A stretch of DNA of 64,000 nucleotides. It comes from Sporichthya brevicatena (GTDB lineage Bacteria; Actinomycetota; Actinomycetes; Sporichthyales; Sporichthyaceae). The DNA lies in NCBI RefSeq assembly GCF_039525035.1, contig NZ_BAAAHE010000014.1, forward strand, positions 71,810 to 135,809, in the 5' to 3' direction. The position numbers were made by a program, and so were the translations under genes. Within the stretch, counting starts at the first letter, position 1. Each line of letters opens with the position of its first letter. Shown in pieces: positions 27,443-59,502 of the stretch. The notes under the pieces are model-generated. The model worked only from the letters and a program-made list of their open reading frames with translations. It was not told the DNA's origin and made no database searches.

Positions 27443-27443
27443 G

Positions 27444-29779: not shown

Positions 29780-29782
29780 GGC

Positions 29783-30148
29783 TCAGGCGTGCTCGCGCGC
29801 CGGGGCCGGGATGTCGTGGGAGTTCCGGTCCGCCGGCGCCGCGGTCGTGGGCAGGGACCCGGGAGCCAGCTTCCGGAGGATCTCGTTCTGCTCGAGGACG
29901 GCGGCCTCGACGGCGTCCATCTTCCGCCACTCGTCGCGGAGGTCGGCCGAGACCCACAACGTGGTCGCGGTTGCGAGGGCGAAGACGCCACCGAGCCCGC
30001 AGGAGATCAGGTAGGGGATCTGGCCCGCGACGATGCCCTGGTCGCTGACGCCGAACCACCCGACGACGAGCAGGACCACACCGACCACCGCGGCCAGGAC
30101 GGCGGCCGCGCGGTCGGGCTGGGATCGGACGAACGTCACCGGGTCCAC
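29783..30148 (-). CDS. Two-helix protein with SADLRDEW motif
   Basis: A 121-residue protein with two membrane helices (about 14-32 and 45-66) followed by SADLRDEW at 67-74 and a charged, possibly coiled-coil tail. The homologue at 42977 has SADLRDEW at the same position and the same start, which is why GTG 30148 is chosen over GTG 30139. The gene overlaps the stop of the secreted-protein gene upstream by 13 bases and precedes the HRPEC protein. The function is unknown; conservation beside both importers suggests a membrane adaptor. Confidence 0.78.
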   Translation of the reverse strand: MDPVTFVRSQPDRAAAVLAAVVGVVLLVVGWFGVSDQGIVAGQIPYLISCGLGGVFALATATTLWVSADLRDEWRKMDAVEAAVLEQNEILRKLAPGSLPTTAAPADRNSHDIPAPAREHA

Positions 30149-42980: not shown

Positions 42981-43324
42981 AACCGTTCGACGCGATCCGC
43001 GCCCACTGGGACCGGGCCCTGGCGCTGGGGTTGACGGTCGTCGGCCTCCTGATGCTGGTGGTCGGGTACTTCCGCATCAGTGACACCCCGTACCCCGCCG
43101 AGCAGCTCCCGCTGCTCATGTCGGCGGGGGTGGGGTCGCTGTTCCTGCTCGGGATCGGCGCCACGCTCTGGCTCTCGGCCGACCTGCGCGACGAGTGGCA
43201 CAAGCTCGACGAGCTCACCGGGACCGAGCCCGTCGCCGCCGCCGAAGCGCGCGGGACCGATGCCGCGGCCCAGACCCGGGCGGACGACCGCTCCCACGAC
43301 GGAGCCCGGGCCACCGCACGATGA
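42977..43324 (+). CDS. Two-helix protein with SADLRDEW motif, importer 2
   Basis: A 115-residue protein with two membrane helices (about 14-32 and 46-66) then SADLRDEW at 67-74 and a charged tail. It is the counterpart of the protein at 29783, aligned from the first residue. Overlaps of four bases with both neighbours suggest coupled translation in fixed ratio. No function is known. Confidence 0.8.
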   Translation: MKPFDAIRAHWDRALALGLTVVGLLMLVVGYFRISDTPYPAEQLPLLMSAGVGSLFLLGIGATLWLSADLRDEWHKLDELTGTEPVAAAEARGTDAAAQTRADDRSHDGARATAR

Positions 43325-43752
43325 GTGGAGCACGGGCGATCGACGCCCGGCCGTGGACCGCCGGCGCCCTGCGCCTGACCGTGGCCGCGAACGCCGTGGC
43401 GGCGGTCCTGCTGGTCGTCGCCTGGTACGGCGTCGCCGGTGAGGCGCGGCTGGCGGACGCCACGCCGTGGGCCAATCTCTCCGCGATCGGGCTGGTGCTC
43501 GCCGCGTTCGGGAACGCGCGGCTGATCCTCGTGGCCCGCTCGCGCATCGGTGCGCGCCAGGCCGCGCTGCGCCGGTCCAGGACCGCGGCCCGCCGTCCGG
43601 TCGACGTGGACGACGCACGCCGCGTCGTCGTGCCCGGTGGCCGGCTGTACCACCGGCCCGAGTGCCGTCTCGTGGTGGGCAAGCCCGCCGAACCGCTGGC
43701 GCCGCGCAGCAGCGCGGAGGCCCTGGAGCCCTGCGGGTGGTGTCGTCCGTGA
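43321..43752 (+). CDS. Two-helix protein with HRPEC...CGxC tail, importer 2
   Basis: A 143-residue protein with helices near 15-40 and 52-72, a basic linker and a C-terminal His111, Cys115, Cys138, Cys141 set (HRPEC-x22-CGWC). This matches the layout of the protein at 29339. The four residues could bind zinc or an iron-sulfur centre. ATG overlaps the previous stop and the permease GTG overlaps its own stop. Confidence 0.8.
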   Translation: MSGARAIDARPWTAGALRLTVAANAVAAVLLVVAWYGVAGEARLADATPWANLSAIGLVLAAFGNARLILVARSRIGARQAALRRSRTAARRPVDVDDARRVVVPGGRLYHRPECRLVVGKPAEPLAPRSSAEALEPCGWCRP

Positions 43753-45713
43753 ACGAATGGACCCCCTTCATCGTCTCCGGGCTCGTCGCGGGTTCGCTGC
43801 TCGGTCTCGCCGCCGTCGGCCTCGTCCTCTCCTTCCGCACCAGCGGCCTGTTCAACTTCGCGCACGGCGCCGTCGCGGCCGCCGCGGCCTACGTCTTCTA
43901 CGAACTGACGGAGGTTCGGGGCATGCCCTGGCCGCCGGCGGCGCTGGTCGTCCTCGGCGTCTTCGCCCCGGTCATGGGTCTGCTGCTCGAGCGCATGGCC
44001 GCCGGCCTGCAGGGTGTGCGGGCGGTCTACCGGATCGTCGCCACCGTCGGCCTCCTGCTCGTCGTGCAGGGCCTCGCCGCCGTGCACTACGGGCCGTCGA
44101 CGATTCCGCTCGAGCCGTTCCTGCCCCAGGGCACGGTCGACATCGGCGGCACCTTCGTCTCCTACGAGCAGATGATCGGCGCGGGCATCGCGCTGGTCGG
44201 CGTCCTCGCGTTGCTCGCGCTGTTCCGCTGGACCAAGACCGGTCTGCGGATGCGCGCGGTCGTCGACAACCCGCAGCTGCTCTCCTACGAGGGCGACAAC
44301 CCGACGGCGGTCCGCCGCGGCGCGTGGATCATCAGTGCGGTCTTCGCGAGCGTGACGGGTCTGCTGCTCGCCCCGAGCCTCGGTCTCGACACCGTGGTGC
44401 TCGCGCTGCTCGTCGTGCAGGCGTTCGGCGCCGCGGCCGTCGGCCGGTTCGGTTCGATCGGCCTCACCTTCGCCGGTGGCATCGTGATCGGTGTCGGCAG
44501 CGCGTGCAGCGGCAAGGTCATCGGTGACCAGCTCCCGAACTCGGTGTTCTGGGCGAGCATCCCCGACGTCGCACCGTTCATCGTCCTGTTCGTCCTGCTG
44601 ATCGTGACGCCGGCGCGCAAGTTCTTCGACGTCCCGAGCAGCAACCGGACCGCCAGCGGCCGCGCGGTCACCCCGCGGGTGCACTGGGAGGCCGTCGCCG
44701 CGCTCGGGGTGTTCGCGCTCCTCGTGCCGACCTTCGTCGACACCTCGCTCCCGGTCTGGACCACGGCGGTCACGCTGGTCCTGGTCTTCCTCGGCCTCGG
44801 CCTGATGGTGTGGACGTCGGGTCAGATCTCCCTCGCGCACGCCGCGTTCGCGGCGATCGGCGCGGCGGCGATGAGCCACTTCCTCGGCAACGGACTGCCG
44901 TGGGGGATCGCGCTGCTGCTCGCCGGGCTGGTCGCGGTGCCGGTCGCGACCGCGGTCGCGCTCCCGACGCTCCGGCTCTCGGGCCTCTACCTCGCGCTGG
45001 CGACGTTCACCTTCGCGGTGCTCCTGCAGCAGCTCGTGTACCCGACCGAGGCGATGTTCGGTGGCGGTGTCCGCGCGGTCTCGCGCCCCGACATCTCGTT
45101 GTTCGGTCTCGACCTCACCACGGACAAGGGCTACTACTACCTGTGCGTCGCGGTCGCGGCGGCCGCGGCCGGTCTCGTGTTCGGCATCCAGCGCGCCCGC
45201 CTCGGCCGGCTCCTGCAGGCCAACGCCGAGTCGCCCGACGCGGTCGCGGCCAACGGCGGTGACAGCACGACGATCCGCACGGCCGTCTTCTGCGTCGCCG
45301 GCTTCCTCGGCGCGCTCGGCGGTGCGCTCGCCTCGGGCGTCACGCTGCAGGCCTCCAGCCGCGGTTACGGCTACACCGTCGGCCTGACCTGGGTCGCGGT
45401 CCTCGCGCTGTTCGGCTCGCGGGCCACGGTGCTCCGCGCGTCCGCGGCGGCGTTCTCCCTCGCGGTCATGCCGACGCTGATCGAGATGGACCCGGGCTGG
45501 TACACCGCGATCTTCGGCGCCGCGGCCATCACCGCCAGCCTCGTGGCGGACCGTCAGTTCGACCTCACCCGGGGTTGGGGTCCGGGCCGCGTGCCCTCGC
45601 GCCTGCGCCATCCCGGCTACTTGCCGTCGCGGCCGGTGCGGGCCGCACGACCGCCCCGGCCGGCCGCCCCGGACGACGACCGCCGGCCCGTGGGAGCAGG
45701 GGTGCGCTCATGA
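43749..45713 (+). CDS. Fused LivH-LivM type ABC permease, importer 2
   Basis: A 654-residue fused permease. The LivH half has 'FRTSGLFNFAHGAVAAAAAYVF' and the LivM half 'VWTSGQISLAHAAFAAIGAA'. Some 15 hydrophobic helices are visible. The C-terminal ~45 residues are an Arg/Pro-rich cytoplasmic tail absent from the protein at 27444. GTG start overlaps the upstream stop, and LivG overlaps the end. Confidence 0.93.
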   Translation: MNEWTPFIVSGLVAGSLLGLAAVGLVLSFRTSGLFNFAHGAVAAAAAYVFYELTEVRGMPWPPAALVVLGVFAPVMGLLLERMAAGLQGVRAVYRIVATVGLLLVVQGLAAVHYGPSTIPLEPFLPQGTVDIGGTFVSYEQMIGAGIALVGVLALLALFRWTKTGLRMRAVVDNPQLLSYEGDNPTAVRRGAWIISAVFASVTGLLLAPSLGLDTVVLALLVVQAFGAAAVGRFGSIGLTFAGGIVIGVGSACSGKVIGDQLPNSVFWASIPDVAPFIVLFVLLIVTPARKFFDVPSSNRTASGRAVTPRVHWEAVAALGVFALLVPTFVDTSLPVWTTAVTLVLVFLGLGLMVWTSGQISLAHAAFAAIGAAAMSHFLGNGLPWGIALLLAGLVAVPVATAVALPTLRLSGLYLALATFTFAVLLQQLVYPTEAMFGGGVRAVSRPDISLFGLDLTTDKGYYYLCVAVAAAAAGLVFGIQRARLGRLLQANAESPDAVAANGGDSTTIRTAVFCVAGFLGALGGALASGVTLQASSRGYGYTVGLTWVAVLALFGSRATVLRASAAAFSLAVMPTLIEMDPGWYTAIFGAAAITASLVADRQFDLTRGWGPGRVPSRLRHPGYLPSRPVRAARPPRPAAPDDDRRPVGAGVRS

Positions 45714-46525
45714 CCACGCCCAACGCTGAACCGATGTTGCACCGTCCCGACGAGCGGGTGCTCGTGACCCGTGGCCTCACCGTCCAGTTCGGCGGCACGC
45801 GCGCGGTGTCCGAGTTCGACCTCGAGGTGCGACGCGGCGAGATCGTCGGTCTGATCGGGCCGAACGGCGCCGGCAAGACGACGACGCTGAACGCGTGCGC
45901 CGGCACCGTCCGGCCGGCGGCCGGCACCGTCGAGCTGCTCGGCTCGGACGTGTCCGACTGGACGCCGGCGCGGCGCGCCCGGGCCGGCCTCGGCCGGACC
46001 TTCCAGCGGTTCGCGCTCTGTGACTCGCTCTCGGTCGCGCAGAACGTCGGCCTCGCCACCGAGGCCCGTGACTCCGGCGGCCGCCCCTGGCGCTGCTTCC
46101 TCGCCCCGCGCGGTTCGCGGGCGGAGCAGCAGGCGCGGGTGACCGAGGCCCTGGAGACCTGCGGCATCGCGGACCTCGCCGGCCGCCGGGTCGGCTCGCT
46201 GTCCACCGGTCAGCGCCGGCTGGTGGAGCTCGCCCGCGCGGCGTGCGGCCGCTCCTCGGTGCTGCTGCTCGACGAGCCGTCCTCCGGTCTGGACCCGAGC
46301 GAGACCGAGACGTTCGCGAGCATCGTGCGCAGCATCGTCGACACGACCGGGGCCTCGGTGCTGGTCGTCGAGCACGACATGACGCTGGTCCGCGAGATCT
46401 GCGCCTACCTCTACGTCCTGGACTTCGGCGTCCACCTCTGCGACGGCCCGACCGAGGCCGTCCTGCGGGACGACCGGGTGCGCCAGGCCTACCTCGGCAC
46501 CGTCGAGGAGCCCGCCCATGCTTGA
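45710..46525 (+). CDS. Liv-type ABC transporter ATPase (LivG class)
   Basis: A 271-residue ABC ATPase with Walker A GPNGAGKTT, a modified signature 'SLSTGQRRLVELARAA' and Walker B 'VLLLDEPSSGLDPSE'. The LivG-like insertion before the signature includes a basic 'WRCFLAPRGSRAEQQ'. It works with LivF (46518) to drive the fused permease. The minus-strand importer has no equivalent gene. Confidence 0.93.
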   Translation: MTTPNAEPMLHRPDERVLVTRGLTVQFGGTRAVSEFDLEVRRGEIVGLIGPNGAGKTTTLNACAGTVRPAAGTVELLGSDVSDWTPARRARAGLGRTFQRFALCDSLSVAQNVGLATEARDSGGRPWRCFLAPRGSRAEQQARVTEALETCGIADLAGRRVGSLSTGQRRLVELARAACGRSSVLLLDEPSSGLDPSETETFASIVRSIVDTTGASVLVVEHDMTLVREICAYLYVLDFGVHLCDGPTEAVLRDDRVRQAYLGTVEEPAHA

Positions 46526-47240
46526 GCTGCGACGCATCAGCGCCGGATACACCGGCGCCGCGGTGCTGCACGACGTCGACCTGATCGTCCCGGCGGGCAG
46601 CACCGTCGCCCTGCTCGGCCCGAACGGCGCCGGCAAGACGACGCTGCTCCGCGTGGCCGGCGGCACCCTGCGCCCGATGCGGGGCCAAATCCTCGTCGAC
46701 GGTTCGGACGTGACAGGCCGTCAGCCGCACGACCTCGTCCGGTACGGGGTCTGCACGGTCCCCGAGGGCCGCGCCGTGTTCCCCAACCTCTCCGTCCGCG
46801 AGAACCTCACGCTGTTCGCGGACGGCCACAGTTCCGCCCTCGACCTCGCGGTCGAGGCGTTCCCGACGCTCGGCCGGCGCATGAACCAGCGCGCGGGATC
46901 GATGAGCGGTGGTGAGCAGCAGATGGTTGCGCTCGCCCGGGCGTACCTGCAGAACCCCCGGCTCGTCCTGCTCGACGAGGTCTCGATGGGCCTCGCACCG
47001 GTCGTCGTCGACGAGGTCTTCGAGTTCCTCGCGACCGTCCGGGAACGGGGTGCGTCGCTGCTGCTCGTCGAGCAGTACGTCGGCAAGGCACTCGCCCTCG
47101 CCGACTACGTCGTCCTGCTCGCCCGCGGGCGCGTCCAGTTCGTGGGCGAACCGCAGGAGTTGGACGAGGAAAAGATCTTCTCCTCCTACGCGGGCCTCGA
47201 GTCCGCCGGAGCGTCGTCAGCCCAAGGAGTACCGCGATGA
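46518..47240 (+). CDS. Liv-type ABC transporter ATPase (LivF class)
   Basis: A 240-residue ABC ATPase with GPNGAGKTT, 'MSGGEQQMVALARAY' and 'LVLLDEVSMGLAPVVVDEVFEFL', closely related to the LivF at 26750. It overlaps LivG by 8 bases and the lipoprotein gene by 4 bases, so the whole importer is translationally coupled. Confidence 0.94.
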   Translation: MLELRRISAGYTGAAVLHDVDLIVPAGSTVALLGPNGAGKTTLLRVAGGTLRPMRGQILVDGSDVTGRQPHDLVRYGVCTVPEGRAVFPNLSVRENLTLFADGHSSALDLAVEAFPTLGRRMNQRAGSMSGGEQQMVALARAYLQNPRLVLLDEVSMGLAPVVVDEVFEFLATVRERGASLLLVEQYVGKALALADYVVLLARGRVQFVGEPQELDEEKIFSSYAGLESAGASSAQGVPR

Positions 47241-48733
47241 AACGCCGGACCTTCCGGACCACCGCGATCGTGTGCAGCCTCGTCGTCCTCAGTGGCTGCG
47301 CGAGCCGGCTCGACCGTGCCGAGATCGTGGCCGCCCAGACCGGCGGCGCCCCGGCCGCCGCCGGCGCCGGGGCCCAGGCGGGCGTCGATCCGTCGACCAT
47401 CGGGGGAGTCGCCCCCGGCACCGACACCGGGACCGGCGCGGTGGCGCCCGGGGTCGACCCGGGCACCGCCCCCGGATCCGTGACCGAGCCCGGCTCGACC
47501 GGGACCGCCCCCGGCACCGGGGCCGCGGGTCCCGCCACGACCACGGGTGGGACCACCACGACCGACTCGACGGGCTCGAAGGGCAACACCGGGACCACCG
47601 GCGCGACCGGCAGCACGGCGAAGGCGAACAACCTGCCGATCACCGTCGGCTTCGTCGGCTCGATCACCGGCCTGTACGGGACCTCGTTCCGGCCCGCGCT
47701 GAACGCCATCCAGGCGAACATCACCGACCTGAACGCCAAGGGCGGCGTCAACGGCCACCCGATCAAGCTGATCGTCGCCGACGACGCGGGCGACCCGTCG
47801 ACCTACGTGGCCCAGCTGCGGCGCATGGTCGAGAGCGACAAGGTCCTCGCGTTCGTGGGCAACACGCACGCCGCGTCGCTCTCGCAGGCCGCGATCGACT
47901 ACGTCGAGTCCAAGCAGATCCCGATCCTCGACGGCGACGACTCGAACCTGCTCGCCCCGACCAGCCACATGATCTTCGGCTTCGGCGCCGCCGGTCTCGG
48001 CCTGAACGGCACCGAGTTCGCGGCCGCGCGGGACCTCGTCGGCAAGGGCAAGAAGGCCGGCTTCATCTCCTGCCAGGAGGTGCAGCAGTGCGCGGACTAC
48101 GCGCAGGGCTTCGCGGAGTACGCGAAGAAGGCCGGGTTCACCCCGGTGTTCGCCGGCCGCGCGTCGCTGACCGCCCCGGACTTCACCGCGAACTGCCTCC
48201 AGGCGCGTAACGCCCAGGCCGAGATCCTGTTCCTCCGGATCGACATCAACTCGGTCAAGCGCATCGCCCGGGACTGCTCGCGCCAGGGCTACAAGCCGGT
48301 CTACGTGACGGCGCCGGTCCTCACCGACCCGAGCTACCCGTCGAACCCGGCGTTCGACAAGATCATCACCCCGAGCCAGCAGTTCCCGTTCATCAACGAC
48401 AAGCTGCCGGAGGAGAAGCGGTTCCGCTCGGTCCTGTCCCGCGTGATCTCGGTCGACCAGATCTTCGCGTCGCACGCCCAGGGCTGGAACGTGGCGAACA
48501 TCTTCGCCGAGGCGGTCAAGCGCGGCATCGCGCCGGACGCGACCCCGTCGACGGAGCTGATCCTCAAGGGGCTGTGGAGCTTCAAGAACGTGACGCTCGG
48601 CGGCACCAGCCAGCCCCTGACCTACGTCAAGGGTCAGCCCCCGGCGCACCTGAAGAACGTCTGCGCCTTCCCGATGCAGATCCAGAACGGAAAGTGGACC
48701 GCGCCGTTCGGCAACAAGCCCAGCTGCCTGTAG
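47237..48733 (+). CDS. Liv-type ABC transporter solute-binding lipoprotein, importer 2
   Basis: A 498-residue type I binding protein with lipobox VLSGC (Cys at about 22), 'ASRLDRAEIVAAQ' directly after it, a long Gly/Thr/Pro linker (to about 130) and a ligand domain opening 'ITVGFVGSITGLYG'. It is more distant from the lipoproteins at 2599 and 31449 than they are from each other, so this importer may take a different ligand. The Cys pair in 'ISCQEVQQCADY' is shared. It closes the importer operon; GGAGAGGA then precedes the MDR reductase. Confidence 0.93.
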   Translation: MKRRTFRTTAIVCSLVVLSGCASRLDRAEIVAAQTGGAPAAAGAGAQAGVDPSTIGGVAPGTDTGTGAVAPGVDPGTAPGSVTEPGSTGTAPGTGAAGPATTTGGTTTTDSTGSKGNTGTTGATGSTAKANNLPITVGFVGSITGLYGTSFRPALNAIQANITDLNAKGGVNGHPIKLIVADDAGDPSTYVAQLRRMVESDKVLAFVGNTHAASLSQAAIDYVESKQIPILDGDDSNLLAPTSHMIFGFGAAGLGLNGTEFAAARDLVGKGKKAGFISCQEVQQCADYAQGFAEYAKKAGFTPVFAGRASLTAPDFTANCLQARNAQAEILFLRIDINSVKRIARDCSRQGYKPVYVTAPVLTDPSYPSNPAFDKIITPSQQFPFINDKLPEEKRFRSVLSRVISVDQIFASHAQGWNVANIFAEAVKRGIAPDATPSTELILKGLWSFKNVTLGGTSQPLTYVKGQPPAHLKNVCAFPMQIQNGKWTAPFGNKPSCL

Positions 48734-48757
48734 CTCCCGCCCGGAGAGGACACCCGC

Positions 48758-49774
48758 GTGACCCTGAAGAACACGGCCTGGTACCTGCGTTCCCGGCCGA
48801 CCGGTGAAGTCGACGCCAGCCACTTCGACGTCCGCACGGAGGAGGTGCCTGATCCGGGTCCTGGCCAGGTCCTGGTCCGGAACATCTACCTGATGATCCC
48901 GGCCTCGATGCGGATCTGGATGAACGAGCGGGACACCTACCTCCCGGCCGTCCCGCTCGGCACCGTGATGCGCGGGATCACCACGAGCATCGTGGAGAAG
49001 TCGAACGACGAGCGGCTGCCGGTCGGCACGTACGTCAACGGCATGTGCGGCTGGCAGGAGTACGCGGTGGCGGCCGTCGAGGAGCTGATGCCCCTGACGC
49101 ACAAGCACCCCGACATCCCGCTGTCGAACTACCGGCACGTCCTGGACTTCCAGGGCCTGACCGCCTACTGCGGCCTGACCGACGTCGGCAAGCCGCAGGC
49201 GGGGGAGACCCTCGTCGTCACCGCCGCGGCCGGCAGCGTCGGCTCGCTGGTCTGCCAGATCGGCAAGAAGCTCGGCCTGCGCGTCATCGGCATCGCCGGC
49301 GGCCCGGAGAAGTGCCAGTGGCTGCGCGACGTGTGCAAGGTCGACGGCGCGATCGACTACAAGTCCGACGATGTCGGCGCGAAGCTCGACGAGCTGTGCC
49401 CGAACGGGATCGACATCGTCTTCGAGAACGTCGGCGGTCCGGTCCTGGACCTCATGCTCGACCGCATCAACCTGCGGGCGCGCATCGTCCTGTGCGGCTT
49501 CGTCTCGACCTACTTCGGCGGTGAGCAGACCGCCGGCCGCGGGCTGATGAACCTGGTCAACCAGCGCGGCACGATGCAGGGCTTCATCGTCCTGGACTAC
49601 CTCCCGCACTACGCCGAGGTCATGGGGATCCTGACGCCCTGGGTGCTGGACGGCAGCCTCGTCCACCCCGAGGAGATCCTCGACGGCCTCGAGAACGCAC
49701 CGGTGGCGATGAACCGGCTGTCCCGGGGCGAGAACCACGGCATGCAACTCATCCGCATCTCACCGGAAGCCTGA
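48758..49774 (+). CDS. NADP-dependent MDR oxidoreductase (alkenal/one reductase type)
   Basis: A 338-residue zinc-independent medium-chain reductase. The NADP motif is 'VVTAAAGSVGSLVCQIGKKLG', and the cofactor-specificity segment 'GIAGGPEKCQWL' with Lys follows, as in leukotriene-B4 dehydrogenase/curcumin-reductase relatives. Catalytic zinc Cys ligands are absent. It probably reduces the C=C bond of an alpha,beta-unsaturated ketone or aldehyde. GTG start with GGAGAGGA in the gap after the lipoprotein gene, so it is likely part of the same transcript. Confidence 0.88.
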   Translation: MTLKNTAWYLRSRPTGEVDASHFDVRTEEVPDPGPGQVLVRNIYLMIPASMRIWMNERDTYLPAVPLGTVMRGITTSIVEKSNDERLPVGTYVNGMCGWQEYAVAAVEELMPLTHKHPDIPLSNYRHVLDFQGLTAYCGLTDVGKPQAGETLVVTAAAGSVGSLVCQIGKKLGLRVIGIAGGPEKCQWLRDVCKVDGAIDYKSDDVGAKLDELCPNGIDIVFENVGGPVLDLMLDRINLRARIVLCGFVSTYFGGEQTAGRGLMNLVNQRGTMQGFIVLDYLPHYAEVMGILTPWVLDGSLVHPEEILDGLENAPVAMNRLSRGENHGMQLIRISPEA

Positions 49775-49780
49775 CACCAC

Positions 49781-50236
49781 ATGGGAACCGCCGACCCCGC
49801 CCACACCCAGATCGTCGAGGACTGGTACCGCGCGCTGCAGACCCTGGACCTGGAAGGGTTCCTGAAGCTGCACGCGTCCGACTGCATGTACAACATCAGC
49901 GGCCACAGCCCGATCTCCGGTCGTTGCGACTTCCAGCAACTGCAGGAGGAGGTTCTCCCGCAGGTCTTCGGCCGGCTCGACCTCAACCAGTTCCGCTTCA
50001 CGAACTGGAAGATCATGTGCCAGGACGACCAGCGCGTCGTCGGGATCATGGACGCCGACGGTCCCGGCACCAACGGCGAGCGCTACGACCAGCGCTACGT
50101 GCACATCTTCGAGGTCCGCGACGGTCTGATCCGTCAGGTGTGGGAGTTCTTCGACACCAAGCTCGCCGAGCAGGTCCTCTTCTACGACCCGGAGAACAGC
50201 CCGACCAACGGCCGCCTGGCCCCGTTCGAGTACTGA
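49781..50236 (+). CDS. SnoaL/NTF2-like protein
   Basis: A 151-residue small alpha+beta barrel protein, 'IVEDWYRALQTLDLEGFLKLHASDCMYNISGHSPISGR' being the typical opening and 'RYVHIFEVRDGLIRQVWEFFDT' the closing sheet. Members include isomerases, hydratases and cyclases for polyketides and steroids, as well as non-enzymatic pockets. No fixed catalytic pair can be assigned. It sits 6 bases after the MDR reductase. Confidence 0.82.
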   Translation: MGTADPAHTQIVEDWYRALQTLDLEGFLKLHASDCMYNISGHSPISGRCDFQQLQEEVLPQVFGRLDLNQFRFTNWKIMCQDDQRVVGIMDADGPGTNGERYDQRYVHIFEVRDGLIRQVWEFFDTKLAEQVLFYDPENSPTNGRLAPFEY

Positions 50237-50248
50237 GGAGATCCGGAC

Positions 50249-50815
50249 ATGTCGCGCATCCCCCTGGCCACGACCGACCAGATGCCCCCCGAGATCGCCG
50301 GACTCGTGGCGGCCGTCGAGGAGCAGACCGGTGACTCGACGGCGCTGCGTGCGCTCGCGCACCGGCCCGACATCCTCGGTCCGTTCGCGCAGTTCTACTG
50401 GAACCTGCAGACGACCGGTCAGCTCGACCGCAAGCTGATCGAGCTGTTCCGGCTCTCGATCGCGCAGATCAACCAGTGCCGCAACTGCCTGGCCGGCCGC
50501 TACCAGGACTCGATCGACGAGGGTCTGACCGAGGAGCTGGTCGCTGCCCTCCCGGACGCCGAGAACTCGCCGCTGTTCACCGAGCGGGAGAAGGCCGCGA
50601 TCTCCTACGCGCAGAAGATGGCGACCGACCACTACTCGGTCGGGGACGCCGACTTCGCCCGCCTCTACGAGCACTTCAGCGTCGAGGAGGTCGTCGAGCT
50701 CTGCGTCGACGTCGCCCAGTTCATCGGGGTGGGCCGCATGTTCGCGGTCATCGACGCCATGAACGTCGCGTGCGAGATCCCGGGGGCGCAGAAGGTCGCC
50801 GCCGCCACGAGCTGA
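50249..50815 (+). CDS. AhpD/carboxymuconolactone decarboxylase-like protein
   Basis: A 188-residue alpha-helical protein with the CxxC motif 'INQCRNCLAGRYQDSI' (about 75-90) typical of the AhpD branch, where the Cys pair handles peroxide or disulfide chemistry. True carboxymuconolactone decarboxylase activity is not implied. The C-terminal 'ELCVDVAQFIGVGRMFAV' helix is well conserved in the family. It lies between the SnoaL-like and molybdopterin genes; its stop overlaps the next start. Confidence 0.87.
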   Translation: MSRIPLATTDQMPPEIAGLVAAVEEQTGDSTALRALAHRPDILGPFAQFYWNLQTTGQLDRKLIELFRLSIAQINQCRNCLAGRYQDSIDEGLTEELVAALPDAENSPLFTEREKAAISYAQKMATDHYSVGDADFARLYEHFSVEEVVELCVDVAQFIGVGRMFAVIDAMNVACEIPGAQKVAAATS

Positions 50816-53007
50816 TGGCGGGCCTCCGGACGGTGCACTCGACGGTCTGCCAGGTCTGCCACAACTGCTGCCCGATCGAGGTGGCGGTCGAGGCCGGACG
50901 GGCCGTCGAGATCACCGGGAACAAGAACAACCGTCACTACGCCGGCTTCAGCTGCGGCAAGGGGCGCCGTCAGCTGGCCTACCACTACTCGCCGGACCGC
51001 CTCCTGCACTCGCAGAAGCGGTTGCCGAGCGGGGAGTTCGTGCCGATCTCCTCGGCCCAGGTCATGGACGAGATCGCGGAGCGTCTGCAGGGCCTCCTCG
51101 CCGAGCACGGCCCGCGGGCCGTGGCGCTGTACTTCGGCACCCAGGCGTTCCAGACCGCCGGCTCGTCGATGCCGGTCATCAAGGGGTTCCTGAACGCCAT
51201 CGGCACCCCGATGGTGTTCGACTCGGTGACCATCGACCAGCCCGGGAAGATGGTCGCCCGCGCGCTGCACGGGAGCTGGCTCGCGCCGGCCCACACGGCG
51301 GACGAGGCCGAGGTCCTGCTGCTGTTCGGGGCCAACCCGCTGGTCAGCATGCTCGGGCTGCCCTCGGGCAACCCGGGCACCTGGCTGAACCGGCGGCTGG
51401 AGGAGGGCGCGCGCCTGATCGTCGTCGACCCGCGCCGGACCGAGACCGCCCGGCGGGCCGAGCTGTTCCTGCAGGTCCGGCCCGGCCACGACGTCGCGAT
51501 CCTCGCCGCGATGCTGCGGGTCATCCTCGCCGAGGATCTGGGGGACCGTCAGTTCATGGCGTCCTGGGTCGACGGCATCGACCGGCTGCGTTCGGCCGTC
51601 GCGCCGTTCACGCCCGAGGCGGTCGCCCGGAACGCGGGCATCGACGCGGACGACCTCGTCCGCGCCGCGCGGATGTACGGCAGCGCCCGCTCCGGATTCG
51701 TGGACGCCGGGACCGGGCCGAACATGGCCCAGTCGGGGTCGACGCTGGAGTACCTCATCGCGGTGTTGCGCTCGGTCTGCGGTCACGTGCGCCGCGCGGG
51801 CGAGGCGGTCCCGGACCCGCTGACGCTCTACCCGGCGCTGCCGGCGATCGCGCAGCCGATGCCGCCGGCCCCGGCCACCGGGTTCGGGGAGCAGTTGCGC
51901 GTCCGCAACCTGACCAGTTGCCCGGCCGGTCTGCCGGTCTCGGCGCTGGCCGACGAGATCCTCCTCGAAGGGGAGGGGCAGGTCCGCGCGCTGTTCAGCG
52001 TCGGTGGCAACCCCGTCGTCGCGTGGCCCGACCAGGTCCGTACGACGGCGGCGATGAAGGCGCTGGACCTGCTCGTCACGGTCGACCCGTTCCTGTCGAA
52101 CACCGCACAGTTCGCGGACTACGTCATCGCGCCGCGGATGCCGCTCGAGGTCCCGCACGTCACGCAGATCCTCGACTTCCTCCAGGTGCTCGGCATCGGC
52201 CCCGGCGCCCCGTACGCCCAGTACGGCCCGGCGGTGCTCGACGTGCCCGAGGGCAGTGACCTGCTGAGCGAGTGGGAGTTCTTCTACGGCCTCGCGCAGC
52301 GGCTGAACCTGTCGATCGAGGTCCCGCACCCGTTCGGCATGGTCGACCCGGTCGCGCTCGACATGAGCAAGCCGCCGACGGAGGAGGAGCTGCTCGACAT
52401 CGTCTGCGCCGGCTCCCGGATCCCGCTCGACACCGTCCGGCAGTACCGCGACGGGCTCGAGGGCGAGGCTGCGGCGGAGCCCCGCGTCGTCGTCGCCCCC
52501 GCCGACCCGGCGTGCACGGCGAAGCTCGACGCGGCGAACCCGGAGATGATGGCCGACCTCGAGGCGATCGCGGGTTCGCTCGGCTCCCACGGCACGAGTG
52601 ACGACTCGTTCGTCCTCGTCGGCCGCCGGGAGACGCACGCGGCGAACTCGTCCTACAACGCGAAGGCCGCGCGCGGGATCCGCCGGTACAACCCGGTGTA
52701 CCTGAACCCGGCCGACGCCGAGCGCCTCGGCGTGCGCGACGACGACCTCGTGCGGATCGCCTCCGCGCGGGCGGCGGTCGTCGCGGTCGTCAGCGTCGAC
52801 GACTCGATGCGGCCGGGGGTCGTGGCGTTGAGCCACGCGTACGGCCCGGCCGAGGCGGACGTCGACGACCCGTGGGGCGCGGGGGCCAGCACCGCCCGGC
52901 TCGCGGACGTCGAGGACGACTACGACCGCTACTCCGGCCAGCCCCGGATGAGCGGGATCCCGGTGGTCCTGTCACCCGTGCGCCAACCCGCTCCGGTCGG
53001 AGGGTGA
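50815..53007 (+). CDS. Molybdopterin-dependent oxidoreductase (bis-MGD family)
   Basis: A 730-residue DMSO-reductase-family protein. The N-terminal [4Fe-4S] ligands are Cys12, Cys15, Cys19 and Cys47 (CQVCHNCC...SCGKG). The MGD-binding segments include 'LFGANPLVSML', 'IVVDPRRTETARRAELFLQVRPG' and the C-terminal 'ETHAANSSYNAKAARG'. No Tat signal is present, so it is cytoplasmic. No electron-transfer subunit is adjacent; the nitroreductase next door is the only redox partner in sight. The substrate is unknown. ATG overlaps the AhpD-like stop. Confidence 0.9.
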   Translation: MAGLRTVHSTVCQVCHNCCPIEVAVEAGRAVEITGNKNNRHYAGFSCGKGRRQLAYHYSPDRLLHSQKRLPSGEFVPISSAQVMDEIAERLQGLLAEHGPRAVALYFGTQAFQTAGSSMPVIKGFLNAIGTPMVFDSVTIDQPGKMVARALHGSWLAPAHTADEAEVLLLFGANPLVSMLGLPSGNPGTWLNRRLEEGARLIVVDPRRTETARRAELFLQVRPGHDVAILAAMLRVILAEDLGDRQFMASWVDGIDRLRSAVAPFTPEAVARNAGIDADDLVRAARMYGSARSGFVDAGTGPNMAQSGSTLEYLIAVLRSVCGHVRRAGEAVPDPLTLYPALPAIAQPMPPAPATGFGEQLRVRNLTSCPAGLPVSALADEILLEGEGQVRALFSVGGNPVVAWPDQVRTTAAMKALDLLVTVDPFLSNTAQFADYVIAPRMPLEVPHVTQILDFLQVLGIGPGAPYAQYGPAVLDVPEGSDLLSEWEFFYGLAQRLNLSIEVPHPFGMVDPVALDMSKPPTEEELLDIVCAGSRIPLDTVRQYRDGLEGEAAAEPRVVVAPADPACTAKLDAANPEMMADLEAIAGSLGSHGTSDDSFVLVGRRETHAANSSYNAKAARGIRRYNPVYLNPADAERLGVRDDDLVRIASARAAVVAVVSVDDSMRPGVVALSHAYGPAEADVDDPWGAGASTARLADVEDDYDRYSGQPRMSGIPVVLSPVRQPAPVGG

Positions 53008-53666
53008 TGGACGTCCGCGAGGCGCTCTACACCACCCGGGCGATGCGACGGCTGGCACCGGACCCGGTGCCGGACGAGGTGCTGATGCGCATCCTCGACG
53101 CCGCGATCCGGGCACCGTCGGCCGGCAACGCGCACGCGTTCCGGTTCCTCGTCGTGCGCGACGCGGACACGAAGAAGGCGCTGCAGGTCCTCTACCGGGA
53201 GGCGCTCGACGAGCTGTACCGCACGCGTTACGCGCGGGCCGCCGACGCGGTCCGCGCGGGCACGGCGGATCCGTCGCAGCAGCGGGTGACGGCGTCGGCG
53301 AACCACCTCGCGGATTCCCTGCACACCGCGCCGGTCCTGCTGTTCGCCTACGGACTGAGCAACGGTGCGTCGTCGGTGTTCCCGGCGGTCTGGAGCGCGT
53401 GCCTGGCCGCGCGGGCCGAAGGGCTCGGCAGCACGGTCACCACGTTGCTGAAGGCGCGTCGGGCCGAGGTGGACGCTCTCCTCGGCCGGCCGCCGGACAG
53501 CGAGTACGAGATGTTCGCGATGATCCCCATCGGCCGCCCGCTGGGCCGTTGGGGCGTGGCGCAACGACGCCCGCTGCACGAGATGGTCTACACCGAACGC
53601 TGGGCCTGCCCGCCCGACTGGAACTGCGACCGGCCGCTCTGGCCGGAACCTGAAGGAGCACCATGA
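53007..53666 (+). CDS. Nitroreductase family FMN protein
   Basis: A 219-residue flavoprotein with the FMN-phosphate 'TTRAMRRLAPDPVPDEVL' start, 'RAPSAGNAHAFRFLVV' and 'EMFAMIPIGRPLGR'. Members reduce nitro groups, enones or quinones with NAD(P)H. It overlaps the molybdopterin gene and the following fusion gene, so it is in the same operon. The C-terminus 'WACPPDWNCD' adds two Cys not usual in the family. Confidence 0.9.
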   Translation: MDVREALYTTRAMRRLAPDPVPDEVLMRILDAAIRAPSAGNAHAFRFLVVRDADTKKALQVLYREALDELYRTRYARAADAVRAGTADPSQQRVTASANHLADSLHTAPVLLFAYGLSNGASSVFPAVWSACLAARAEGLGSTVTTLLKARRAEVDALLGRPPDSEYEMFAMIPIGRPLGRWGVAQRRPLHEMVYTERWACPPDWNCDRPLWPEPEGAP

Positions 53667-56344
53667 GCACGGACACCGAGTTCCGACCCCGGACCATCCT
53701 GGTCACCGGTGCGAGTGGCGTCTTCGGCCGCGAGATCACCGAACACCTGGTCCGCCGTGGGCACCGGGTGGTCGGGCTCTCCCGCCGGCCACCGGAGTCC
53801 ATCCACCCCGGCACGACCTTCATCCCCGCGGACATCCGCGACGTCGACGCCGTCACCCGCGCGATGGAGGGCTGCGACGTCGTCGCGCACTGCGCGTGGG
53901 CGATGGACGCGCACTTCGGTGACCCCGCCGAGCGCGCGATCAACATCGACGGCACGGCCAACGTGCTGACCGCGATGGAGCGGACCGGCGCGAGCCGGAT
54001 CGTGTTCGCGAGCTCGTCGACGGCGTACGGCCCCCGGCCGCACGACCGCAGCAAGCTCAAGGAGTCGGTCGCGCTCGCGCCGCACCCCGAGGCGGCGTAC
54101 GCGGTCCACAAGGCCGAGGTCGAGGCGATGCTCGCGGCGGCGCCGGTCGACGCGATCAGCATCCGCGCCGGCATCGTGCTCGGGCGCCGGATCGACAACC
54201 GCGTCCGGAATCTGATGGCGGGTCCGGCGCTCGCGGTCGTCAAGGGGCAGCCGAGCCTGTGGCAGGTCGTCCACGCCGACGACGTCGGCCGCTTCTTCAC
54301 CCTCGCCTGCGAGCGCGGCCCCGCCGGGCCGGTCAACCTCGCGAGCGAGGAGATCCTCGACGTCGAGCAGGTCGGCCGCGCGTTCGGCAAGCGCGTCGTG
54401 GCGGTGCGTCAGGACTGGTTGGAGAAGGGCATCGACACCCTGTACCGGCGCAAGCTGATGCCGGTGAACCGCGGCGACTTCGAGTTCGTGCTGTTCCAGC
54501 CGCTGCTGGACACGACGAAGCTCAAGGAGGAGTTCGGCTTCGAGTGCGCGTGGTCGGGCCCGGACACCCTCGAGGACACGCGCCTCTCGCTCACCGGTGT
54601 GATGGGCATCGGCGACAAGGCCGTCGACGTCCCGTGGCGGCGCGCGTTCCGTCCCGGCCGCGTCCCCGTCGACACCCCGGCGCTCGACGGCGTGAAGCTC
54701 GAGCTCGGTGGCAAGCCCGACCAGGTCGGCGAGTTCGACAGCCCCGTCGACCCGCGGTTCACGTGCTTCATCGCGACGAACTTCTCCGAGGCGCTGCCGG
54801 GCCCGGCGACGCCGCTGTCGCTGACCGCGGTCGCGCCGGCGTTCGCGCAGGCCGGCGTCGCGGTCGTCGACTTCCTCGGGATGACCGGCGTCGCGAAGAA
54901 CGAGGCCTACGCCCGGATGTTCTCGATCCAGGGCCACCGCGTCTACATGAACGTCGCGACCGGCGCGGCCGTCGGCGAGCTCTCGCCGGGCTGGGACGCG
55001 GACTCGTTCGCGGCGCAGTACCTCGGCCGCCACATCCAGGACCTGCCCGCGCTCGACTTCTCCGACCTGCCCATGGACAAGCCCGAGGGCATTCAGGGCC
55101 AGATCAAGGTCGCGGGCGGCATGGGTGTCCGGCTGACCGGTGTGCTCGCCGGCTACCGCCGCGACATCGACACGATGCTGGCCGAGGTGAAGCGTTTCTC
55201 CCGTCTCGTCGGTGACCCGGCCGACCGCACGGACGCGCAGCTGGAGTCGCTGTTCAGCCTCGGCTACGACCTGCAGTGCCACGGCTGGCGCCTGGCCGGC
55301 CTCGGCGCCGTCCTCGCCGGTGCGGCGACGAACACCGCGGAGCAGCTCGCGGGCTCGAAGGGCGTCGTCAGCTCCGTCGGCGAGGGCCTGACCAGCGCCG
55401 AGGGTCTGGGCGGCGTCCGTCGTCTCGCGCGCCTGGCCGCGGCCGACCCGGCGGTGCTGGAGGTGCTCACCTCCGGCGGCACCGGGCTGTACCAGCGGGT
55501 GCAGGAGGTCTCGCCGCGGTTCGCGAACGCGGTCAAGGAAGCACTGAGCAGCTTCGGGCACCGCGGCCCGGCGGAGTGCGAGCTCGCGTCCAGGGTCTTC
55601 GCCGACGACCCGGACCTGGTCCTGCGGACGGTCGGCAAGGCCGCGACCGCGCCGGAGCGCAGCAGCGGTGCCGAGCACGCCGAGCCGCTGGTCCCGCGGC
55701 GGGCGCGGCCGGCCGTCAAGCTCGCGCGCTGGGCGACCGGTGAGCGGGAGCGCGACCGCGACGCGCTGGTGCGGGTCATCCACCTGATGCGCTCGATCGC
55801 GCGGGAGCAGGGCCGCCGGCTCACCTCGGCGGGTGTGCTCAACTCCTCCGCCGACGTCTTCTACCTGACGTTCGACGAGCTGTTCGCGCCCGGCGCGGAC
55901 GCGAAGGAGACCGTCGCCCGGCGGCGCGCGGAGCGGGAGCGGCTGGCGTCGATCCGGCTGCCGATCGCGTTCGTCGCGCCGTGGGAACCGGAGCCGGCGA
56001 CGACGGCGCTCGGGGTCGGGGACCAGCTCTCCGGCGTGGCGGCCGCGCCGGGCAAGGCGCGCGGCGTCGTCCGCGTCGTCACCCCGGAGACCGCGCACCT
56101 GGTCGAGCCGGGCGAGGTGATGGTCACCGCCGTCACCGACGTCGGGTACACCCCGTTGTTCGGCCACGCCGCCGCGGTCGTCACCGACATCGGCGGGCTG
56201 CTCTCGCACGCGGCGGTGGTCGCGCGCGAGTTCGGCATCCCGGCCGTCTGCGACACCGCGACCGCGACCGCCCGTCTCGTCGACGGCATGGAGGTCGAGG
56301 TCGACGGGACCGCCGGCACCGTCACCGTGCTGGCGACACCGTGA
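53663..56344 (+). CDS. Epimerase fused to PEP-synthase/RPH-like C-terminal half, copy 2
   Basis: An 893-residue homologue of the protein at 24111. The N-terminal ~310 residues are an extended SDR (VTGASGVFG, 'AHCAWAMDAHF', 'YAVHK'). The C-terminal half has 'ATNFSEALPGPATPLSL', 'GHRGPAECELASRVF' and the swivelling domain 'TDIGGLLSHAAVVARE' with candidate phospho-His849. No ATP-grasp domain is present. It ends the operon that begins with the second importer, mirroring the place of copy 1. Function is unknown; a two-step dehydrogenase/phosphotransfer enzyme is one hypothesis. Confidence 0.83.
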   Translation: MSTDTEFRPRTILVTGASGVFGREITEHLVRRGHRVVGLSRRPPESIHPGTTFIPADIRDVDAVTRAMEGCDVVAHCAWAMDAHFGDPAERAINIDGTANVLTAMERTGASRIVFASSSTAYGPRPHDRSKLKESVALAPHPEAAYAVHKAEVEAMLAAAPVDAISIRAGIVLGRRIDNRVRNLMAGPALAVVKGQPSLWQVVHADDVGRFFTLACERGPAGPVNLASEEILDVEQVGRAFGKRVVAVRQDWLEKGIDTLYRRKLMPVNRGDFEFVLFQPLLDTTKLKEEFGFECAWSGPDTLEDTRLSLTGVMGIGDKAVDVPWRRAFRPGRVPVDTPALDGVKLELGGKPDQVGEFDSPVDPRFTCFIATNFSEALPGPATPLSLTAVAPAFAQAGVAVVDFLGMTGVAKNEAYARMFSIQGHRVYMNVATGAAVGELSPGWDADSFAAQYLGRHIQDLPALDFSDLPMDKPEGIQGQIKVAGGMGVRLTGVLAGYRRDIDTMLAEVKRFSRLVGDPADRTDAQLESLFSLGYDLQCHGWRLAGLGAVLAGAATNTAEQLAGSKGVVSSVGEGLTSAEGLGGVRRLARLAAADPAVLEVLTSGGTGLYQRVQEVSPRFANAVKEALSSFGHRGPAECELASRVFADDPDLVLRTVGKAATAPERSSGAEHAEPLVPRRARPAVKLARWATGERERDRDALVRVIHLMRSIAREQGRRLTSAGVLNSSADVFYLTFDELFAPGADAKETVARRRAERERLASIRLPIAFVAPWEPEPATTALGVGDQLSGVAAAPGKARGVVRVVTPETAHLVEPGEVMVTAVTDVGYTPLFGHAAAVVTDIGGLLSHAAVVAREFGIPAVCDTATATARLVDGMEVEVDGTAGTVTVLATP

Positions 56345-56421: not shown

Positions 56422-57048
56422 ATGGCCCGGTCGGGACAGCCTGCACGGCGGCCCAACCGGCGCGAGCACGTCATCCGAGCCGCGGTGACCGTGTTCGCCC
56501 GGGAGGGCTACCAGGGCACGTCGATCCAGGACGTCGCCGCCGAGGCGGACGTCGTCACGACCGCGGTCTACTACCACTTCTCCAGCAAGGACGAGCTGTA
56601 CGAGGCCGCGCTCGAGAGCGTCTTCCGGCAGCTCGACGAGGTCGTCGAGGAGGCCCGCGAACCGGAGGGCGAGCTGAGCTTCAGCCGCGTCATGGGCGCG
56701 GTGTGGGACTGGGTGGAGAACAACCCCGAGCCCGCGAAGCTGCTCTACCACCAGCTCCCGGGCGCGACGGCGAACTCGCTGCAGATCCGGCAGGAGTTCG
56801 AACGCCGCCACATCGAGCGGATGGTCGACTACCTCAAGGCCCCCTCGGCCCCGAGCAACCGGCGCGACGCCGCATTGCGGTGGACGACGTTGTCGCTGAT
56901 CATGCGCAGCGTCTTCGCCCTCGGGACCAACATGCACTCGCTGCGACTCGGCGACGGCCCGTTGGCCGGCCACTCCGAGGCCGCCCTGCGCAAGGCCTAC
57001 GAAGAGGTGTCGCTGAGCATGATGGCCGCGGCGGAGGAGCGGAGCTGA
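56422..57048 (+). CDS. TetR family transcriptional regulator
   Basis: A 208-residue regulator with an HTH in 'VIRAAVTVFAREGYQGTSIQDVAAEADVVTTAVYYHFSSKDELY' (about 18-62). The C-terminal domain 'ALRWTTLSLIMRSVFALG' is family-like. It follows the fusion gene by 77 bases with no clear palindrome in the gap, and faces another TetR gene. It may respond to the substrate of the upstream operon. Confidence 0.9.
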   Translation: MARSGQPARRPNRREHVIRAAVTVFAREGYQGTSIQDVAAEADVVTTAVYYHFSSKDELYEAALESVFRQLDEVVEEAREPEGELSFSRVMGAVWDWVENNPEPAKLLYHQLPGATANSLQIRQEFERRHIERMVDYLKAPSAPSNRRDAALRWTTLSLIMRSVFALGTNMHSLRLGDGPLAGHSEAALRKAYEEVSLSMMAAAEERS

Positions 57049-57814: not shown

Positions 57815-58810
57815 GTGAGCGAGAAGCGACAGTTGGTCGGCGACTACAACTTCCGGAACGTCGCGGGAATCTACGAGCCCGACCTGTCGGTGATTCTGCC
57901 CGACCAGCCGCTGAACGGCGCCTCGCTGCAGTCGCAGTACGTCTACGGCGGCCTGACCGGTGCGTCCGGCACGCGGTACATCGTCGAGCGCAAGTTCGTC
58001 GGCCCGATGTCCGGCGGCAACTACATCCTCGGCAACGCGAACGGCTCGATGGAGCTGCTGCCCGAGTCCGACCGCAGCGCGAAGGGCGAGCTCGTCCGCG
58101 ACTTCTCCCCGCTGCGGCGGAACTGGAAGTCGAAGGGCATGCTGCACGCGTCCAACGAGCTGCCGATCGACCTGACGATCACCGACGAGGAGCTGACGTG
58201 GAGTGAGGGTGAGGCCCTGACGCTCTCCGGGGCTCGTCCCGCCGTCGGCGTCCAGTTCTTCGCGCCGTCGCGCACCGAACCGCTCGCGTATGCCAGCCAG
58301 GCGTACTGGGTGACGGGGACGGTGCTGGGGGAGACCGTCGAGGGTCCGATCTTCTTCGACCACCTGTACTTCCAGCACGGCGCGGAGTGGAAGGAGTACC
58401 GCTGGTACATCGACCTGCAGATCTCCTGGAACGTCTTCGCGAACAAGTTCGACGACGGGACCGTCGAGTTCGGCCACATCGTCCGCGGTCGGCAGGGCTG
58501 GAGCGCGGGTGTCGTCGTCGAGGGCGACCGGGCGATGGCCGTGTGCACCGACGTGGAGGGCACCTTCACCCTCGACGACGAAGACTACGTGACCGGTGCC
58601 GTCTACGACCTCGGGCGCGCCGGGACGTGGGAGTTCTTCGGCGACCCGGCGCAGCAGATGGGCGGGTTCAACAAGGCCCGCTGGGGCGGGTACCGGGCGC
58701 AGGGTGGCCTGACGCGTCGTCAGGGCGACGACCGCACCCTGGTCAACGGCTGGACCTGGCTGGAGTGCTTCGCTGATCGCATGCGTACCGAGAACCTGCT
58801 CACCGGGTGA
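57815..58810 (+). CDS. Conserved protein of unknown function, paralogue 3 of 3
   Basis: A 331-residue relative of the products at 50 and 5285, with 'TGTVLGETVEGPIFFDHLYF' (167-186) and FDDGT (212-216) at matching positions. It is soluble with no recognised domain. The GTG at 57815 follows GGAGGA and is preferred to a start 25 codons upstream that would overlap the operator region. It is divergent to a TetR gene and overlaps the histidine phosphatase gene (GTGA). Its sequence favours the same beta-rich fold as its relatives. Confidence 0.8.
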   Translation: MSEKRQLVGDYNFRNVAGIYEPDLSVILPDQPLNGASLQSQYVYGGLTGASGTRYIVERKFVGPMSGGNYILGNANGSMELLPESDRSAKGELVRDFSPLRRNWKSKGMLHASNELPIDLTITDEELTWSEGEALTLSGARPAVGVQFFAPSRTEPLAYASQAYWVTGTVLGETVEGPIFFDHLYFQHGAEWKEYRWYIDLQISWNVFANKFDDGTVEFGHIVRGRQGWSAGVVVEGDRAMAVCTDVEGTFTLDDEDYVTGAVYDLGRAGTWEFFGDPAQQMGGFNKARWGGYRAQGGLTRRQGDDRTLVNGWTWLECFADRMRTENLLTG

Positions 58811-59502
58811 GCGCGACCCCGTTCATCAATCACCTCCCCGCCGTCCTGCGGGACGGGACCGAGGTGACGCGCATCCTCTTCGTCCGTCACGGCCAGCAGG
58901 AGCCCGCCCCGCCGGGCACGCTGCCGCAGGCGTGGATGGACAGTCCGCTCACCGAGCTCGGCCGCGCGCAGGCGCGTGCCGTCGGTGAGCACCTGACCGG
59001 CGAGCGCCTCGCGGCGGTCGCGTCGAGTGACCTGCAGCGGGCCCGGCAGACCGCCGAGGCGATCGCTGCGCACCACTCGCTGGAGGTCCAGGCGTTCCCC
59101 GGGCTGTCGGAGATCGACTGCTACTCCGGCGTCCCCGCCGACGTCTGGCCCGCCGACCACGTCGGCGCCGACGCCTGGGTCGCCGCCCACGAGACCTTCG
59201 CCCGCGAGGGTCGCTGGGAGGTCTTCGGCTGCGGGGAGTCCGGGGCTGCGTTGCGGGACCGCGCCGTCGCCGTCGTCGACTCCCTCGTCGACAAGTACCC
59301 GGGTGAGTCGATCGCCGTCGTCTGCCACGGCGGGACGATCAACGCCTACGTCTCGCACTGGCTCGGCGTCGCCGCGGACATGTTCTTCCTCCCGGCGCAC
59401 GCCTCGGTTTCCGTGGTCCTCGCCGCCCCCGACGGCCGCCGGGCGATCGAGTCCCTCAACGACCGCCACCACCTCTCCGCCGCCGACGTCCTTACGTACT
59501 GA
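58807..59502 (+). CDS. Histidine phosphatase family protein
   Basis: A 231-residue phosphoglycerate-mutase-like enzyme. The phosphohistidine motif is 'LFVRHGQQE' near 24-32, with 'SSDLQRARQTAEAI' and the second catalytic His in 'AVVCHGGTINAYV'. It removes phosphate from an unknown small molecule. The coupling with an unknown-family protein suggests a shared pathway, not shown by the sequence itself. Confidence 0.9.
   Translation: MSATPFINHLPAVLRDGTEVTRILFVRHGQQEPAPPGTLPQAWMDSPLTELGRAQARAVGEHLTGERLAAVASSDLQRARQTAEAIAAHHSLEVQAFPGLSEIDCYSGVPADVWPADHVGADAWVAAHETFAREGRWEVFGCGESGAALRDRAVAVVDSLVDKYPGESIAVVCHGGTINAYVSHWLGVAADMFFLPAHASVSVVLAAPDGRRAIESLNDRHHLSAADVLTY

Follow-up and report, generated by a model that had tools for sequence, protein, structure and literature searches.

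Rifampin phosphotransferase (RPH) consists of an ATP-grasp domain, a rifampin-binding domain and a swivel domain. In the two-component phenolic kinase HpeHI the acceptor and swivel domains form one protein, HpeH, and the ATP-grasp partner, HpeI, is separate; HpeH alone was able to move phosphate from 4-phosphoacetophenone to acetovanillone (PMC12167813). Here we describe a gene of Sporichthya brevicatena which fuses an extended short-chain dehydrogenase/reductase (SDR) to what appears to be a module of this type. It begins at position 53663 of a stretch of 64,000 nucleotides (contig NZ_BAAAHE010000014.1, positions 71,810 to 135,809), hereafter the window, and is referred to as copy 2, since a homologue (copy 1) lies in the same window. 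We propose, with a probability of roughly 0.6, that copy 2 joins an NAD(P)-dependent extended SDR to that half of a two-component small-molecule dikinase which handles the substrate, and that a short PpdK/VadK-type protein would provide its phosphoryl group.

The protein is laid out as an extended SDR (residues ~10-320), a helical, RPH-type acceptor domain (~350-790) and a swivel phosphohistidine domain (~790-890). A Pfam scan matched Epimerase (PF01370) to residues 12-221 (E 2e-30) and the phosphoenolpyruvate (PEP)-utilizers mobile domain (PF00391) to residues 815-885 (E 2.9e-20), and found no match to the ATP-grasp family PF01326 in the chain. Both extended SDR motifs, TGxxGxxG and YxxxK, are intact (TGASGVFG and Y146-K150). 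His849 lies in the motif GGLLSHAAVVAREFGIP and is invariant across 28 aligned fusions, and the phosphohistidine motif of two-component dikinases, T/SxxGGxxxH, is present as TDIGGLLSH849. A preliminary description of the window, made from the sequence alone, had already pointed to a conserved His849 and to a domain order shared with copy 1, and was right on both counts: Pfam returns the same order for the two proteins, which are 39% identical. It had also named the mobile domain correctly, but had overlooked that the whole of residues ~350-893 is an acceptor and swivel module.

An AlphaFold2 model of copy 2 (mean pLDDT 88, pTM 0.90) was compared with the PDB using Foldseek, and the top match was RPH of Listeria (E 2e-18, 590 columns), followed by UDP-glucose 4-epimerases. 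A family profile search matched RPH residues 513-867 (E 6e-45) with the phosphohistidine motifs aligned, and the acceptor-domain motifs were among the best-conserved positions of the fusion alignment. Since the acceptor and swivel domains are of the RPH type and an ATP-grasp domain is missing, the protein would combine an SDR with the half of a two-component dikinase that corresponds to HpeH. It has its acceptor and swivel domains in common with RPH, but carries an SDR in the place of the ATP-grasp domain that RPH holds in the same chain. As in HpeHI, CreHI and PpsAB, acceptor and swivel share one chain and an ATP-grasp domain is found on another (PMC12167813); the fusion differs from these systems in its N-terminal SDR, in a candidate partner with a swivel domain of its own, and in gene order, as the two genes are not adjacent in the window genome and are linked in some other genomes only. 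It is therefore best seen as a variant within the two-component small-molecule dikinases, one in which an SDR occupies the position of the ATP-grasp domain and for which phosphotransfer itself is predicted.

No PF01326 protein is encoded on the contig of the window. The genome (G000; genomes, loci and contigs are cited by our own G, L and C numbers) encodes three: an RPH-like single chain, a full pyruvate phosphate dikinase (PPDK) with a PEP-binding barrel, and a short PpdK (G000:C12) of 542 aa, which has ATP-grasp and swivel domains and lacks the barrel. Without a PEP/pyruvate domain, the short PpdK is unlikely to be a normal PPDK. The protein of this type in Mycobacterium tuberculosis, Rv1127c, recently named VadK, autophosphorylates on His422 with ATP and Mg (PMC13400623). 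In its ATP-grasp and swivel domains and in its autophosphorylation VadK suits the role of fusion partner proposed here; unlike the fusion it has no acceptor domain, and its published role is regulation of the methylcitrate cycle.

A short PpdK-like gene (open frame of 442-587 aa) was present in all nine genomes tested, eight of which carry a full fusion and one (G004) a partial form. Among 109 Mycobacterium genomes, 43 had both fusion and short PpdK, two (G341, G376) the fusion only, nine PpdK only and 55 neither (Fisher's exact test 6e-19, uncorrected for kinship). The mere presence of any PF01326 protein was discarded as a partner signal, since 233 of 297 genomes of the class have one. One 3.3 Mb Mycobacterium genome (G363) has a PpdK match with five stop codons and no detected fusion, which looks like joint loss.

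The genes are also physically linked in a number of genomes. Gene calls outside the window were made with a simple codon-usage script, so that starts may be wrong and genes may be missed. PpdK, a pks12-like gene and the fusion occupy one locus in the mycobacterial genomes G346, G327, G355 and G312; in the first three PpdK adjoins pks12 and the fusion directly follows it, and in G312 PpdK lies 2.4 kb beyond the fusion. Linkage of fusion and PpdK within 6-19 kb recurs in a Gordonia locus and in catabolic islands of G311 and G377, the latter having two such islands, and in G002, a member of the window's own family, PpdK is found between LivG and LivF. In six of eight loci having PpdK only (G306, G331, G356, G383, G307, G336; not G371 and G240), a free HpeH-like protein devoid of ATP-grasp is encoded beside PpdK, at distances from overlap to 1.8 kb; the PpdK of G383, skipped by the gene caller, was placed by its coordinates in the Mycobacterium co-occurrence search. 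An APH-type kinase was considered as partner of the HpeH-like proteins and rejected, the ~335-aa neighbours being DUF7064/7065 proteins or a membrane protein. In many mycobacteria (L176, L178, L180, L181, L182, L183 and L187) the short PpdK has next to it a gene of ~201-205 aa, which resembles Rv1126c in size and position and is a possible third component.

The mycobacterial relatives of the fusion mostly lie directly behind pks12. The family model NF004520 (PRK05865, 'sugar epimerase family protein') aligned colinearly with residues 12-890 of copy 2 (E 8e-185, 616.1 bits); since this is below its curated cut-off of 1509 bits, copy 2 counts as related to this family but falls outside it by that measure. 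From the shared architecture we take NF004520 to be the family of Rv2047c, which has the same order of SDR, acceptor and swivel domains. In a tree of the second half the pks12-linked proteins form one group, next to those linked to a binding-protein-like gene (SBP3, see below). The SDR Tyr and Lys are kept in window-type, Nocardia, Gordonia and catabolic-island copies; in the pks12 group, by contrast, L098 is the only examined copy whose Tyr has not been lost or replaced, and the YxxxK motif kept by copy 2 is thus mostly absent (some N-terminal gene calls are short, but this region is unaffected). As the acceptor and swivel motifs are fixed in that same group, the phosphotransferase half is the common denominator of the family. 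In an independent published screen, transposon sequencing calls over six iron conditions were NE-ES-ES-NE-NE-GD for rv2047c, NE-ES-GD-NE-NE-ES for ppdK and NE-GD-GD-NE-NE-GD for pks12 (PMC7058343); the three profiles nearly coincide and group these genes together. According to a 2012 review, the enzymes responsible for reduction and for phosphorylation in phosphomycoketide synthesis had yet to be identified (PMC3318773).

Based on these findings, the following scheme may be drawn. The ATP-grasp domain of the short PpdK would bind ATP and supply the phosphoryl group, His849 of the fusion would carry it, and the swivel domain would pass it on to a small substrate bound in the acceptor domain, at a hydroxyl group. 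The SDR would interconvert carbonyl and hydroxyl on the same substrate, before or after phosphorylation. Since in this lineage the fusion shares one operon with a Liv-type importer, its substrate is likely to enter the cell that way and to be both reduced or oxidised and phosphorylated there; it would in this way be trapped, or activated for catabolism by P450 and beta-oxidation-type enzymes, and a nearby histidine phosphatase could take the phosphate off again. The set of kinase, P450 and phosphatase recalls the alkylphenol pathway of Corynebacterium glutamicum (CreHI, CreJ, CreD). A literature search for the fusion in connection with terpenes or importers found nothing direct.

Several points weigh against this scheme. 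The PpdK gene lies on another contig in the window genome and ~0.43 Mb away in G003, and the fusion-bearing genomes G341 and G376 have no detectable short PpdK, G376 not beside its pks12 locus either. PpdK has its own swivel histidine and HpeI has none, so that the relay is not identical to that of HpeHI. The substrate class, a terpenoid alcohol, is suggested with low confidence by the neighbouring genes, and we know of no fusion member with a known activity. VadK has been reported to bind methylcitrate-cycle enzymes (PrpC and PrpD, by pull-down) and to regulate the cycle; its co-immunoprecipitation table does not include Rv2047c, and its main phenotype is propionate toxicity. These reported functions are unexplained by the partner model; they either count against it or point to a second role. 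Together with the published flux data, they would be expected if PpdK/VadK were an independent regulator of the methylcitrate cycle that co-occurs with the fusion only through the shared ancestry of slow-growing mycobacteria, as the uncorrected co-occurrence statistics would also allow. We consider this improbable, because PpdK and fusion are linked in pks12 clusters with a second PpdK type, in catabolic islands and in Gordonia, and because HpeH-like neighbours replace the fusion where it is missing; the linkage adds evidence beyond what shared ancestry alone explains. Equally improbable, in our estimate, is a second half that makes no use of ATP and moves phosphate between small molecules, relays it from phospho-PpdK, or acts as a phosphohistidine switch regulating the SDR. 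The lack of an ATP-grasp domain in the chain, the transfer achieved by HpeH on its own and the swivel histidine of PpdK are all compatible with such activities, but co-occurrence and linkage with an ATP-binding partner, and acceptor motifs that are among the most conserved positions, argue for the two-component dikinase. The short PpdK is the probable ATP-grasp partner of the fusion, and it may be used as such in the window genome.

The importer link raises a further question, since the pathway step performed by the fusion might be specific to Liv-mediated uptake. A run of 13 genes on one strand (41745-56344), with gaps of -16 to +24 bp between them, ends with copy 2. The importer genes of this operon match BPD_transp_2 (the two permease domains, LivH and LivM, in one protein), ABC_tran (two ATPases) and Peripla_BP_6 (the binding protein), as in Liv/HAAT-type ABC importers; the fusion thus does close the unit downstream of importer 2, as had been described, and copy 1 does follow LivF in importer 1, overlapping the LivF-like gene (26750-27442) by 4 bp. 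The 256-kb contig has four full fusion copies, three of them inside Liv operons. Of these three lineages, the coupling of the 53663 type is kept in G001, G002 and an Actinomycetota metagenome-assembled genome (MAG; 70% identity), and that of the 24111 type in G002 and G003; the third is C14:55660. The PpdK gene within the Liv operon of G002 fits the same idea. On the other side, LivHM matched in only one of 79 loci of other genomes, that of the MAG, and in none of the other 78 outside the family within the fetched flanks, some of which are short, and no importer lies beside the G003 orthologue of C14:55660. All four fusions are within 8.1 kb of a LivHM gene (p about 3e-4 for random placement genome-wide, about 0.1 on the importer-rich contig), and other PEP-mobile genes of the genome show no such association; proximity on this contig is nevertheless weakly informative, because G000 has 32 closely related LivHM genes, seven of them on the window contig. 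Operon fusion and its conservation in G001, G002 and G003 are stronger evidence than these statistics. A step tied specifically to Liv uptake hence appears unlikely, though less so than the alternatives above. The importer link is real but confined to the window lineage, in which the importer seems to have been added; what the family shares is probably phosphorylation rather than import. The preliminary description had suggested a shared pathway step on the imported substrate and had looked to importer association in other genomes for support. The coupling holds in sister genomes and the MAG, whereas a general tie fails in the remaining 78 loci, and with the acceptor and swivel module recognised the step becomes a specific one, phosphotransfer. 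That the SDR is a true nucleotide-sugar epimerase in an operon that handles sugars is very unlikely: its fold and family do match UDP-glucose 4-epimerases, but good matches extend to 3beta-HSD and OleD-type reductases, and the neighbours are acyl-CoA dehydrogenases, P450s, a linalool dehydratase-like protein and an AttH/CrtC-fold protein.

The preliminary description had counted three independent pairings of a Liv-type binding protein with this family. Those at 53663 and 24111 stand; the third, at 9584, is weak. The gene there has no PEP-mobile domain in a Pfam scan (of the frame beginning 15 bp upstream, at 9569), and is kept across two genera of the family (93% in G003, 75% in G002). It does follow a Peripla_BP_6 match, SBP3, but inspection by eye found no signal peptide at the SBP3 start. 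SBP3 is therefore no ordinary binding protein of an importer, and probably does not belong to one at all. It is possibly a cytosolic ligand sensor or scaffold. SBP3-like genes are conserved beside fusion genes in Nocardia and Mycobacterium. The order SDR, SBP3, SDR-only gene in the window corresponds to SDR, SBP3, full fusion in Nocardia harenae (L026), and in Mycobacterium innocens a full fusion likewise comes next after the SBP3 gene; the SDR-only form has therefore probably lost its second half. A split version was seen in G003 (C1:1712000-1731000, L143) and G004 (L135), where a 617-aa SDR protein lies beside an HpeH-like protein of 540-553 aa; in G003 a luciferase-like monooxygenase gene follows the latter.

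Table 1. Fusion genes and neighbouring features; coordinates are those of the window unless a contig is named.
Feature	Coordinates	Strand	Remarks
Fusion copy 2	53663..56344	+	893 aa, ATG start
Fusion copy 1	24111..26753	-	880 aa, directly behind LivF-like gene of importer 1
Importer 1 operon	26750..32954	-	LivF, LivH-LivM, two small membrane proteins, secreted protein, binding protein; upstream of copy 1
Third full copy	C14:55660-58317		outside window; directly behind binding-protein gene of third Liv operon
Fourth full copy	C14:27927-30548		outside window; 6.9 kb from fourth LivHM gene
SDR-only relative	9584..10984	+	466 aa
SBP3	8430..9587	+	Peripla_BP_6-like, no signal peptide; upstream of SDR-only gene
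Secreted, membrane-anchored protein	41745..42980	+	family unassigned; first gene of importer 2 operon
Two small membrane proteins	42977..43752	+	115 and 143 aa, typical of importer family
Fused LivH-LivM permease	43737..45713	+	importer 2
LivG and LivF ATPases	45734..47240	+	importer 2
Peripla_BP_6 binding protein	47237..48733	+	importer 2; lipoprotein-like
MDR oxidoreductase, SnoaL-like, AhpD/CMD-like, molybdopterin oxidoreductase and nitroreductase-like genes	48758..53666	+	between importer 2 and fusion
TetR-type regulator	56485..57048	+	
AttH/CrtC-fold protein	57815..58810	+	no Pfam hit; recurrent fusion neighbour
Histidine phosphatase superfamily protein	58807..59502	+	PF00300; candidate pathway phosphatase
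Cytochrome P450	40234..41532	-	divergent from importer 2 operon; adjoins it in G001 too

Among the neighbours of copy 2, none of the five genes at 48758..53666 lies between importer and fusion in G001, and the nitroreductase alone does so in G002. The histidine phosphatase gene is 2.5 kb behind copy 2, with a similar arrangement in G001 and G002, and one is found 69 bp from the fourth fusion copy. The surrounding island encodes acyl-CoA dehydrogenases, P450s, a thiolase, AMP-binding and enoyl-CoA hydratase proteins, and a linalool dehydratase/isomerase-family protein (PF18566) at 38201-40117; the corresponding island of G003 has a PF18566 protein, 35% identical, at a site where the window has none. 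Many AttH/CrtC-fold proteins without a Pfam family occur in the island (57815-58810, 5285-6265 and more copies on C14), their nearest solved folds including kievitone hydratase. The Liv-type importers are themselves greatly expanded in G000 (32 loci, including 41745-48733 and 26750-32954), with fused LivH-LivM and three accessory proteins without a known Pfam family, a secreted anchored one of ~410 aa and two small membrane proteins. Neither Rfam nor a tRNA scan gave a hit in the window.

The wider picture that we draw from this is tentative, and we would put it at a little under even odds. Short PpdK/VadK proteins may be shared ATP-grasp donors for many acceptors in Actinomycetia that lack this domain, and pks12, Rv2047c and PpdK may together account for the missing mycoketide kinase, with the rv2047c-type fusion and PpdK as the candidate pair for phosphorylation in phosphomycoketide synthesis. 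As the catalytic Tyr of the SDR is lost or replaced in most of the pks12-linked copies examined, the reducing step in those bacteria is probably performed elsewhere. In the window lineage this kinase, its SDR still live, would be wired to ABC importers so that import and phosphorylation form a single unit. A family annotated just as 'sugar epimerase family protein' thereby gains a proposed mechanism, and VadK, whose published role is regulation at the protein level, a predicted phosphate acceptor. These findings suggest functions for two proteins of tuberculosis-related bacteria about which little is understood, and a way in which a kinase can exchange its ATP-grasp domain for a redox domain and still work, by relying on a partner in trans.

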